A stretch of DNA of 64,000 nt from positions 3,534,001-3,598,000 of the forward strand of contig CM074698.1 in assembly GCA_037367355.1 (NCBI GenBank), written 5' to 3'. Below the pieces are notes generated by a model. The model was not told the origin of the DNA, searched no databases, and worked only from the letters and a program-made list of their open reading frames with translations. Source of the DNA: Neoscytalidium dimidiatum (Eukaryota; Ascomycota; Dothideomycetes; Botryosphaeriales; Botryosphaeriaceae). Position 1 is the first letter of the stretch; each line of letters starts with the position of its first letter. The position numbers and the translations under genes are program-made. Below, in pieces: positions 15,024 to 48,924 of the stretch.

Positions 15024-16183
15024 ATGTCCGCCCAGGCACAGGATCTCAGGAAGACCTCGGACAGCGAGGCGACCGCCCCGGCTGCCACGTCCGCCGCCCA
15101 ACAGAGCGACAATGTAGCTCACGCCCTGGCTGGTGCTGGTGGAGGTCTACTCTCCATGACCCTGACGTAGGCTCCCTTGACAGCAGCCCCGCTGCCAAAG
15201 TCCTGCTGATTCAAACCAGCTATCCGCTCATTACTCTGTCCACCCGTGCACAGGTTGAATCCAAGCGGGCGCAGTCGTCAACCCTCGATGCCACCAAGCG
15301 CATCATCCAGCGCGAGGGCATCAGCGGTCTCTATGCCGGCCTCGAGTCCGCGCTGTTCGGCATCAGCGTCACTAACTTCGTATACTACTACTGTTCGTAG
15401 CATGTGACAGAGCAAAGAGGGATAGGTCAAGGCTGACAGGATATACCTCAGGGTACGAATGGACCCGTGCTGGCTTCGAGAAGGCGGCTATCAAGGCCGG
15501 TCGCGCCTCCAAGAAGCTCACGACGGTCGAGTCCATGATCGCGGGCGCCATTGCCGGCAGCGCCACCGTCCTCATCACCAATCCCATCTGGGTCGTCAAC
15601 ACGCGCATGACAGCCCGCAAGTCCGAGTCCAGCGATCAGCAGTTACCCGGCGGCAGCAGCAAGCCGGCCAAGGCGCCGTCGACCATCGGCACCCTCCTCT
15701 CCATCATCAAGGATGAGGGATTTACGCGCCTCTTCGCCGGCGTTGTGCCCGCCCTCGTCCTCGTCATCAACCCCATCCTCCAATATACCTTTTTCGAGCA
15801 GCTGAAGAACGTGCTGGAGAAGAGGCGGCGTGTCACCCCGACGGACTCGTTCTACCTCGGCGCGCTGGGCAAGCTGTTGGCGACGTCGATCACATATCCC
15901 TACATCACGGTAAAGAGCCGTATGCACGTCGCTGGCAAGGACGGCCCTAAGGAGGACATGATGACGAGCTTCCGCCGCATTGTCAAGGAGGAGGGATGGG
16001 CTGGCCTCTACGGAGGTAAGTTGGCTTTGTTCACTACTAGGCGAGGCTTTGTTACTCACATAACGGACAGGTATTGGACCCAAGGTCACTCAGAGTGTCA
16101 TCACGGCTGCGTTCCTGTTTGCATTCAAGGACGCTCTCTACGATATGACTGTCAAGGCCAGGAGGGCGGCGATCAAGAAATAA
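15024..16183 (+). CDS. ant1: Peroxisomal adenine nucleotide carrier (Ant1/PMP47 type)
   Basis: Mitochondrial-carrier-family protein of the peroxisomal membrane that exchanges ATP for AMP to support fatty-acid activation. Exons 15024-15166, 15220-15392, 15452-16015 and 16071-16183 (introns 53, 59 and 55 bp) give 330 residues, the usual carrier length. Three repeats are visible. The first signature is the atypical YPLITLSTRAQVE seen in this subfamily; the others are NPIWVVNTRM and YPYITVKSRMHV. Each repeat ends in a GLYAG/LFAG/GLYGG-like motif. The Ant1/PMP47 identity rests on these signatures. Intron 2 has a GTTCGT donor. Confidence 0.87.
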
Positions 16184-16938: not shown

Positions 16939-17066
16939 AGCTGCGTGGCGCAGCGGAAGCGGTAAGCATATCTCATATCATGAATGCAATCAACAAATCC
17001 ACTAATAATCTCAATAGCGCCGGGCTCATAACCCGGAGGACAATGGATCGAAACCATTCGCAGCTA
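16939..17066 (+). tRNA. Initiator tRNA-Met (CAU) interrupted by a GT-AG intron in the D-stem
   Basis: Exons 16939-16961 (23 nt) and 17018-17066 (49 nt) join to a 72-nt tRNA in which every stem pairs: acceptor AGCTGCG/CGCAGCT, D-stem GCGC/GCGC, anticodon stem CCGGG/CCCGG around CTCATAA, T-stem AATGG/CCATT. Eukaryotic initiator hallmarks are present: A1-U72, three G-C pairs below the anticodon, and T-loop ATCGAAA in place of TTC. The A box (TGGCGCAGCGG, 16946-16956) and B box (GGATCGAAACC, 17045-17055) are intact, and a T7 run follows at 17081. The anticodon loop is not interrupted. Without removal of 16962-17017 the D-stem cannot form. It could be a working gene with a non-standard intron or an inactivated copy; perfect pairing of the remainder favours a working gene. 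Confidence 0.92.
16962..17017 (+). other. 56-nt intron with spliceosomal-type signals inside the initiator tRNA
   Basis: The segment starts GTAAGC and ends AATAG, with CTAAT (17002-17006) 11 nt before its 3' end. These are the donor, branch and acceptor signals of short fungal mRNA introns, at a typical mRNA-intron length. It falls between mature nucleotides 23 and 24 (linear count) in the 3' strand of the D-stem. Normal nuclear tRNA introns lie one base 3' of the anticodon. Owing to a shared G, the boundary could slide by one base without changing the product; only the chosen register gives GT-AG ends. Confidence 0.8.
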
Positions 17067-18193
17067 GAAATTGGCTTTACTTTTTTTCCTTTTTTGCATT
17101 CTCGAGTTTTGAATGGTGCGGGCCGGCTCTGTGTGTGCCTCCACACGTTTCGTTTTGCTTCCCCCAAAGGCCCACTTCGGGAAAGAAATGACTCACTTAT
17201 TTCCACCGCACCCACTTCGTGTATATGACGGACCATTCTGACTGGCCGCCCTGCGCCGGCAGCCCACAATGTTGCGGTAAGACACGCCAGTGGTCATGTT
17301 ACAAAGCAGAAGAAATTGGAGTTCGAAACTTGTTCGTCGCGGAATTGAAGTAATAAGCAATAGAAATCTCTTCATAGCGAAGTGATTGCGCCGGGAACAT
17401 ATTATATACCATTAAGCAATACCCAATGTTATGCCAGTATCCACGTATTCAATAATTCCACGAACGCGATAGAATAAAGAAAGAAAAAAGAAATAGAGAT
17501 GTACTATAACAGCCGCAAGTGTGGAAATTTGAAAGAAGTGAAAACCACGTCACCGTGAACTAAGCAAGTCAACCCGAGCCAAGATGTTCGTTCATTCAAC
17601 AAATCCAACCAGTTACTCTGACACAGAAAAGTAGGAGAAAAGGGGTTAAGAACAAGGCGAAGGAGAGCTCGTATCGAAGAGCAATAATAGTATAAACCCG
17701 TAAGAGATGCACCATAGCCTCCCAATCCTCGATTTCCCAGAAAACCGTGTAAGAGGGAATACCACCGCGCAAGCTATGCAAATCGACTCGACTACGAAAG
17801 CAAAAAGGTTGAGAAAATCGGCATATAAAAAAGGAACCGCCTCGAGCATCGCAGAAACCGCAGCTGCTACCACTTGCTCGCCATCGCCATAATTTTGATA
17901 TACTACACGTAGAAAAAGTATGCAAACCTTAGGGTGAAAGCGAAGAAGATATGAAAAAGCACAAAGCAAGAATTCCACCCTCTCCAATCCGAATGTCAGT
18001 AAAGCACTGTTTTTGGTAATGAAACCTGGACGCCATATCGCTGTGGAGAAGTAGCAGGCAGAGCCACCAGTTCGTCGATGGTCACCATAGTAAGATAGAA
18101 AAGAACCCCCGCAAAGCTAAGGTTGAAGGCCTTGTGCATCTCCAATCTAGCGACTGAGCATGCATCGGTGGAGCCGCAAATGCAGTTAGCCGC
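17067..18193. other. Intergenic: tRNA downstream and nrd1 3' flank
   Basis: AT-richer than the genes; probably holds the nrd1 3' untranslated region. A GTATGT at the nrd1 stop codon could be a donor, so an alternative nrd1 C-terminus might reach in here. Confidence 0.4.
17081..17087 (+). terminator. Pol III terminator of the initiator tRNA gene
   Basis: A T7 run begins 15 nt after the discriminator base, the usual kind of RNA polymerase III stop. Confidence 0.7.
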
Positions 18194-46776: not shown

Positions 46777-48225
<1,449 letters not shown>

Positions 48226-48924
48226 GATGTGCTGTGTTTAGGAGATAAGGGAATAGCGGAAGGACGGGGAAAGGATCTAGAGACCTCTTGGAAGGGACAG
48301 TGGTGAAGATGCTGTGGGAAAAATGAGGCTTCTCTGAGATTTACTATATACCTCAGCCAGCAGCGCAGCTTTGAAGGAACAAAAGGGAAAAATGGCACCC
48401 GTGCTTGACCTGCACGTTCAAATACCAAAAGTCAACGCCTGTGCCGTTTGCTAATCCCCTCACTGCCGTTCGCTGACGTACCGGTCAGCATGGCGAAGAA
48501 CCGTCGTTGACCGACGGCTGCCGCTGCAAGGCCCCTCCCAAATCGAGGAGATCTGGGAGCTTGGATATCACGGGAAGGGGCGGATAATGGGGGAGGGATG
48601 GCGTCGAAGCACGGATATCTCAGGAGAAAGGCGCCAAGCCCGCTGTGGCGCTCGGCTTGCGGCGGGCCAAAGAGGAGCACCTGGACAAAGACCTTCGAAT
48701 AGGCTTGCCACGGATCGCTAATCAAAGGAGCTGGTTTGAGGTACGGCCCCAGTAAGCCGCAAGGGGCGGGGAACCGCGGATGTAGAAACAAGATCGGCGT
48801 GTCGGTGCGAGTTGCGTGGCTGCATATTAAATCTGCGGATGCGGTTGAGCTGCCTCCAACATTGAGCCGCGCCTACCTTCACCACCTTTTCAAGTACTCA
48901 CTCTCACCAAAAATTGTGCCAAAG
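48226..48924. promoter_or_regulatory. Shared divergent promoter region of hpd and ttc36
   Basis: 699 bp between the two head-to-head start codons with no gene between. Both promoters must lie here, so common control is possible. I see no motif I can name. Confidence 0.6.

Follow-up and report, generated by a model that had tools for sequence, protein, structure and literature searches.

Introns of tRNA genes are usually of two kinds, those that splice themselves and those cut by a protein endonuclease. The canonical introns, at position 37/38, are handled by the Sen endonuclease and the Trl1 ligase. Nuclear tRNA introns at sites other than 37/38 are on record for Cyanidioschyzon merolae, a red alga, with similar ones in nucleomorphs (PMC4090602, PMC9602550), and an excerpt of a review presents those of the alga as bulge-helix-bulge structures and credits their removal to the tRNA splicing endonuclease. 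In other eukaryotes insertions in the arms of tRNA genes are, in the excerpts consulted, mostly taken as signs of pseudogenes (PMC4090602, PMC9602550, PMC3978253). Group I introns are reported from bacterial initiator tRNA genes; these are self-splicing, mostly longer than 200 nt and placed in the anticodon loop (PMC8450103).

A spliceosomal intron in a tRNA gene is described in none of the open-access full-text matches listed in our literature search, as judged from titles and the starts of abstracts, with subscription papers and preprints outside its scope. The nuclear rRNA genes of ascomycetes contain spliceosomal introns, and Tani and Ohshima reportedly described the mRNA-type intron of fission-yeast U6 snRNA in 1989 and 1991. 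U6 genes of other fungi also carry mRNA-type introns. The fission-yeast U6 RNA, a Pol III transcript, is described as containing an mRNA-type intron that is spliced, and the intron is thought to stem from reverse splicing near the catalytic bases (PMC10484740, in part).

We analysed a window of 64,000 nt (C4:3534001-3598000 of a 43,759,583-base assembly whose 40 contigs are named C1-C40) in which an initiator tRNA-Met (iMet) gene is interrupted, and then its genome. Twelve tRNA genes on eight contigs (four iMet, three Trp, three Arg(CCT) and two Phe) carry inserts of 51-61 nt at positions 24/25, 28/29, 30/31 or 57/58, and none of these is at 37/38. From their sequences we consider it very probable that the inserts are U2-type spliceosomal introns in nuclear tRNA genes transcribed by Pol III, and that the spliceosome removes them.

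A close parallel is the U6 intron of fission yeast, also a short mRNA-type intron in an essential structural RNA made by Pol III in a fungus. There, however, the host is itself a spliceosomal RNA, whereas here the inserts are spread over four tRNA families and four intron positions. The ascomycete rRNA introns are alike in being spliceosomal, in interrupting a structural RNA not made by Pol II and in occurring in related fungi, but they lie in Pol I transcripts and in no tRNA. Canonical 37/38 introns share the nuclear tRNA gene as host, and occur together with the inserts in the same Trp, Arg(CCT) and Phe genes, but differ in position, splice motifs and expected chemistry. The Cyanidioschyzon and nucleomorph introns likewise interrupt tRNA genes, nuclear or of the nucleomorph, in the D, anticodon and T arms; in contrast to our inserts, those of the alga are tied to a bulge-helix-bulge and the endonuclease, and the excerpts describing them mention no GT-branch-AG pattern. 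Bacterial group I introns share the initiator tRNA host but are self-splicing and mostly larger.

An interrupted initiator tRNA gene

A sequence-only reading of the window had proposed that removing 56 nt would leave a fully paired 72-nt initiator tRNA, and its coordinates, bases and fold are all borne out (Table 1). After splicing, the 72-mer has all four stems paired, A1:U72, a CTCATAA anticodon loop closed by three G:C pairs, and an ATCGAAA T loop. The GTAAGC start of the insert, its CTAAT and its terminal TAG are also there in the sequence as claimed. The intron was said to lie in the D-arm, away from the anticodon; the accompanying premise that the known nuclear tRNA introns are those at 37/38 is not quite right, as C. 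merolae has others.

Table 1. Positions of the features discussed; those without a contig name refer to the window.
Feature	Position	Strand	Basis or remark
Carrier gene, peroxisomal adenine-nucleotide carrier-like	15024..16180	+	ends ~760 nt upstream of iMet
iMet gene, whole	16939..17066	+	sequence
iMet exon 1, tRNA positions 1-24	16939..16961	+	sequence, spliced fold
Box A (TGGCGCAGCGG), 5' of intron, unbroken	16946..16956	+	sequence; we take this to be box A from its consensus letters
mRNA-type intron (putative), 56 nt, GTAAGC...AATAG, tRNA position 24/25	16962..17017	+	sequence
GTAAGC hexamer, 5' splice-site-like	16962..16967	+	sequence
CTAAT, branch-site-like	17002..17006	+	candidate branch A = 17005, 12 nt before insert end
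TAG, 3' splice-site-like	17015..17017	+	sequence
iMet exon 2, tRNA positions 25-73, anticodon CAT	17018..17066	+	sequence, spliced fold
Box B (GGATCGAAACC), 3' of intron, unbroken	17045..17055	+	sequence
T7 run, Pol III terminator-like	17081..17087	+	begins 15 nt past iMet gene
T6, second T-run after iMet	17090-17095	+	sequence
Phe C5 insert, 30/31	C5:3427063-3427116		strict splice-then-find-tRNA scan
Phe C2 gene	start C2:2693349	-	looser scan

Neither ARAGORN nor Rfam (at gathering score), in the runs made on the window, reported a tRNA, and Rfam reported no family at all. A pattern for the anticodon and T arms matched once in the window and never in 100 shuffles. Box A is placed at tRNA positions 8-19 (PMC3978253, in part). 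As the window copy has both boxes unbroken and the T7 run 15 nt after the gene, which are features of a Pol III gene, transcription by Pol III is the simplest reading. The two proteins searched, the carrier and a protein mannosyltransferase, both have their best named match in Diplodia seriata, at 95% identity each, which points to a fungus of the family Botryosphaeriaceae.

Initiator and tryptophan tRNA loci

The sequence-only reading had named several intron-free initiator genes elsewhere in the genome, together with a lack of spliced reads from this locus, as what would refute it. A genome-wide BLAST with the spliced 72-mer (E up to 10) found no uninterrupted iMet gene. It found four loci, on C4 (the window), C7, C3 and C12, all interrupted after nucleotide 23; each alignment spans nucleotides 23-72, and three loci add a separate piece ending at 23. 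The inserts (56, 57, 54 and 54 nt, respectively) sit at the identical place, 24/25, a site common to the three Trp genes as well. Pattern searches of the genome gave no further iMet gene: the anticodon-arm and T-loop pattern had nine matches, four of them the known loci, and the exact sites of GGCTCATAACC were 12, the same four loci and eight places that are not tRNA genes (that search gave 365 matches, 353 with one mismatch, and reading was restricted to the exact sites). The T-arm pattern gave 90 sites against 29 in the control, and a minority of the 90 were read.

A1:U72, three G:C pairs at 29-31:39-41 and A60 are hallmarks of initiator tRNAs. A54-U55-C56 is described as a further initiator feature (PMC3978253, in part). 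The copies on C4, C7 and C3 all have A1:U72, the G:C pairs at 29-31:39-41, A54 and A60. The C3 copy has the acceptor stem AGCTGAA/TTCAGCT in place of the AGCTGCG/CGCAGCT of C4 and C7, and its T stem is altered yet paired; these acceptor and T-stem differences are changed on both sides, so that pairing is kept. The copy on contig C12 has a mismatch between C at position 4 and A at position 69 (C4:A69), an altered T loop (G60) and an insert that begins with GC and is without the branch motif; it looks decayed or dead, tRNA and intron apparently together. A tRNA-Thr(AGT) gene lies at C7:2395586, about 0.8 kb from the C7 iMet gene on the opposite strand.

The Trp genes were first exposed by a degenerate exon-1 search, which met an iMet-like insert at the same site. 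BLAST found three Trp loci (two on C1, one on C10) and, at E up to 10, no uninterrupted Trp gene in the genome; all three have the 24/25 insert and a 37/38 intron. Each also has an A31:C39 mismatch in the anticodon stem, the other stems being paired. Mature tRNA identity is 99-100% within Trp and 79-100% within iMet. The two Trp genes on C1 (C1:3403538-3404400) are separated by about 700 bp; their mature sequences are identical and their intron interiors unrelated, and from this they seem to be an old tandem pair whose exons have been kept alike.

Protein synthesis requires initiator and tryptophan tRNAs. No iMet or Trp gene free of an insert came up in the searches; if these are complete, the cell has interrupted genes alone for both, and its survival probably depends on removal of the inserts. 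A copy of either gene could have been overlooked, although it would then have escaped BLAST at E up to 10. A lone pseudogene was rejected as an explanation, every iMet and Trp locus found being interrupted. The wider suggestion that all the interrupted copies are dead, with working iMet and Trp tRNAs coming from loci that the assembly lacks or the searches overlooked, can draw on the decayed C12 copy, on the fact that the genome search counts are lower bounds, and on the usual pattern of arm insertions, which are mostly found in one of many copies and supposed to mark pseudogenes (PMC4090602, in part). We regard it as extremely improbable. In an assembly of 43.8 Mb and 40 contigs, every iMet and Trp locus that was found is hit; in six of the seven genes (all but the C12 copy) the stems are paired, with the A31:C39 common to the Trp genes as the one exception; one iMet gene has changes on both sides of its stem pairs; and the splice motifs have been kept while the insert interiors diverged. 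The dead copy that the sequence-only reading had left as an option is thus hard to keep, with four of four iMet loci split at one site and three of them intact-looking.

Removal of the inserts by the tRNA splicing endonuclease, as ectopic introns of the Cyanidioschyzon or archaeal type, can also be set against the Trp genes. Their 37/38 introns are not GT-AG in any of the three, and RNAfold gave, for those of the first C1 gene (C1a) and the C10 gene, anticodon-intron pairing beside a 3-nt bulge at the 3' splice site; this arrangement was not seen when the D-arm inserts were folded. The enzyme should be present in this fungus, which has many 37/38 introns, and arm introns of ectopic type are known from the red alga and nucleomorphs in the excerpts cited above. 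However, the GT/branch/YAG pattern of the inserts would be left unexplained, as it is foreign to the Trp 37/38 introns and its motif was found in none of 12 other tRNA genes, and a split at 24/25 puts just one base of the D stem 3' of the intron, too little, judging from the sequence, for the usual outer helix to form. The eukaryotic enzyme is, moreover, described as being placed at 37/38 via the mature tRNA body (PMC3978253, in part). A strict bulge-helix-bulge was absent from six of the seven iMet and Trp D-arm junctions, C12 being a weak candidate, but this carries little weight since the same test missed the true Trp 37/38 introns. Overall we find the endonuclease a very unlikely agent.

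Arginine and phenylalanine tRNA genes

Three Arg(CCT) genes carry inserts, two at 28/29 (GTAAGT...AACAG and GTATGT...CTCAG) and one in the T loop at 57/58 (GTAGGC...TACTGAC...TTACAG), and all three also have a 37/38 intron. With both introns taken out, all three give perfect cloverleaves as minimum-energy structures. They came from one D-arm pattern, and the family count is that of the pattern and not genome-wide. An Arg(TCT) and an Arg(TCG) gene share this D-arm type and are uninterrupted, so the D-arm sequence alone does not bring an insert. In the Arg(CCT) gene on C1 (C1:1496175-1496350) the T-loop intron splits box B after GGTTCG, which makes its expression by Pol III doubtful.

Phe genes were met in the flanks fetched around other loci and not genome-wide; two of the three (C5 and C2) have an insert at 30/31. 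The third, on C9, has none there, and its mature sequence is identical to that of the interrupted Phe genes; judged by this identity, it is a natural empty site and a control. CCTTACC stands shortly 3' of the gene in all three (C2, C5 and C9), and the nearest run of four or more Ts is over 40 nt downstream in C2 and C5.

The inserts resemble mRNA introns

GT, a G at +5 and a terminal YAG are found in 11 of the 12 inserts, the exception being that of iMet C12. A loose branch motif, [CT]T[AG]A[CTG], lies 8-13 nt before the end in 11 of 12, and the strict CTRAY in nine; two Arg inserts on C7 (C7a and C7b) have CTAAG and TTAAC, neither of which is CTRAY. The combination of GT, G at +5, loose branch motif and YAG occurred in shuffled inserts at a mean of 1.7e-5 (5,000 shuffles per insert), for a branch distance of 8-13 nt that was fixed only after the inserts had been seen. 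A rule that predates the discovery of the Arg and Phe inserts (GT[AG]NG[CT], CTRAY 8-20 nt from the end, YAG) holds for six of the seven iMet and Trp inserts, and among 20,000 shuffles of each insert no sequence fits it. For ten of the 12, exon sequence was the only guide to their discovery, so the motifs, present in nine of these ten, were not selected for; the two Phe inserts came from a scan that required splice motifs. The exon base before the insert is G in all 12.

The insert lengths resemble those of host mRNA introns, 51-61 nt against 53-61 nt in the five that were modelled in the window from homologous proteins, a yardstick that includes the introns of the carrier gene and whose first model is uncertain. 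CTRAY lies within 20 nt of the end in only three of these five. The interiors of the seven iMet and Trp inserts are about as alike as shuffled sequence (likeness 0.41-0.58 against shuffled means of 0.44-0.54, a few pairs being slightly more alike), which led us to reject a single amplified element as their source. As the interiors have diverged while the mature tRNAs stay alike, the splice motifs look selected, and the inserts would be old or fast-evolving with the splice motifs persisting. Folded alone, the seven share no common structure visible by eye, with RNA z-scores of -1.88 to +0.94. A group I or II self-splicing intron was set aside, the window having no Rfam family at gathering score and the inserts being 51-61 nt long. 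An assembly artefact is unlikely with 12 different insert sequences on eight contigs. An insert of this mRNA-intron kind was found in none of 30 nuclear tRNA genes from a family search that scored 63 of 1,020 candidates and that favours uninterrupted genes.

Boxes A and B are both unbroken by the insert in 11 of the 12 genes, and eight have a run of at least five Ts within 25 nt downstream. These figures bear on which polymerase is at work. The introns could be spliceosomal yet be removed from long Pol II read-through transcripts (for the window iMet gene, those of the carrier gene), with RNase P and tRNase Z freeing the tRNA. Pol II transcripts are the usual substrates of the spliceosome, and the carrier gene lies on the same strand about 760 nt upstream, although this flanking-gene evidence covers the window iMet gene alone among the 12. 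The broken box B of the C1 Arg(CCT) gene, and the three genes whose first run of at least four Ts is more than 40 nt downstream, also point this way. Against it stand the boxes and T-runs of most of the genes and their spread over eight contigs, so that no single host gene explains all; and the fission-yeast U6 RNA is described as a Pol III transcript that is spliced (PMC10484740, in part). Read-through by Pol II therefore seems to us unlikely.

Proposed splicing of the pre-tRNAs

If the inserts are spliceosomal introns in Pol III transcripts, Pol III would transcribe the iMet gene from boxes A and B to the T-run, and the nuclear spliceosome would recognise GTAAGC, the CTAAT branch site and TAG in the pre-iMet RNA. 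The 56 nt would leave as a lariat, G24 would be joined to C25 and the D stem would be rebuilt; only after splicing would the tRNA fold, have its ends processed, and be modified and exported. The Trp, Arg(CCT) and Phe pre-tRNAs would undergo this spliceosomal step and ordinary endonuclease and ligase splicing of the 37/38 intron. Since the eukaryotic endonuclease is said to recognise the body of the mature tRNA (PMC3978253), the spliceosomal removal probably comes first. It is thus from the genes and their motifs that we infer that the inserts are removed in vivo, that the spliceosome does this, that Pol III makes the transcripts and that the steps follow this order. The original picture, in which the initiator gene works and the spliceosome removes its mRNA-like intron, has been strengthened by the loci found genome-wide and in other families, with splicing itself read from sequence. 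U6 offers no precedent within this genome, where its single match above the cut-off is full-length and contains no mRNA-type intron.

It is likely, in our judgement, that the spliceosome is an obligatory enzyme of tRNA maturation here. The iMet and Trp tRNAs, and perhaps Arg(CCT), would come only from spliceosome-dependent genes, translation initiation would depend on splicing, tRNA genes would be able both to gain spliceosomal introns and to retain them, at several positions, and two unrelated splicing systems would act in turn on some pre-tRNAs. If true, this adds a third, spliceosomal kind of tRNA intron, in an essential tRNA, ties translation initiation to the spliceosome, and means that Pol III transcripts besides U6 undergo splicing. 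Questions that it opens to testing include the route by which Pol III transcripts come to the spliceosome, the sequence in which the two splicing systems work, and the way introns get into genes for structured RNAs. It would also mean that essential tRNAs can escape the standard gene finders, as the window iMet gene did with ARAGORN and Rfam in the runs made here. With tRNAscan-SE 2.0, six of 173 eukaryotes were reported without a CAT-anticodon subtype, there through mislabelling (PMC8450103, in part).

Genome scans

The survey having covered some of the tRNA families, further interrupted tRNA genes may exist in this genome. The exon-1 pattern, with up to three mismatches, gave 1489 matches against 1562 in the control, and about 30 were extracted among the first 100 matches listed. 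Box A followed by a donor site gave 45 matches against 63 in the reversed control; five were known genes, two others compatible with a D stem were not tRNAs, and the remainder were judged by eye from 22 letters. With one extra D-loop base there were 27 against 50. The pattern TGGCNCANNGGNAGCG gave 23 matches against 10 in the control; 19 of the 23 were read or scanned and 12 of these are tRNA genes, ten interrupted and the others Arg(TCT) and Arg(TCG).

We also excised each GT-branch-YAG segment from the loci in hand and the window and then looked for a tRNA. This strict scan gave 25 hits among 343 candidates, against none among 419 in reversed sequence. Owing to overlapping loci and alternative acceptors the 25 amount to ten genes, nine already known and one new, Phe C5. 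A looser version, which led to Phe C2, gave 37 hits among 11,444 against one among 10,547, some of them spurious, lying in mitochondrial sequence or where a gene ends. In fifteen 2-kb stretches round other tRNA genes there were three hits among 1,422 candidates against none among 1,104, and these three were dismissed as lying at the end of a Thr gene. A search for fungal relatives with two patterns in two public contig collections that are not fungal, viral_contigs and genome_contigs, gave no match in the four scans.

Elsewhere in the window, minus-strand open frames at 46777-48237 may encode a 4-hydroxyphenylpyruvate dioxygenase-like protein in several exons. On the 308-kb contig C40, mitochondrial-looking tRNAs form pairs whose members are spaced by about 176,850 bp, which would fit a mitochondrial genome of about 177 kb assembled nearly twice.
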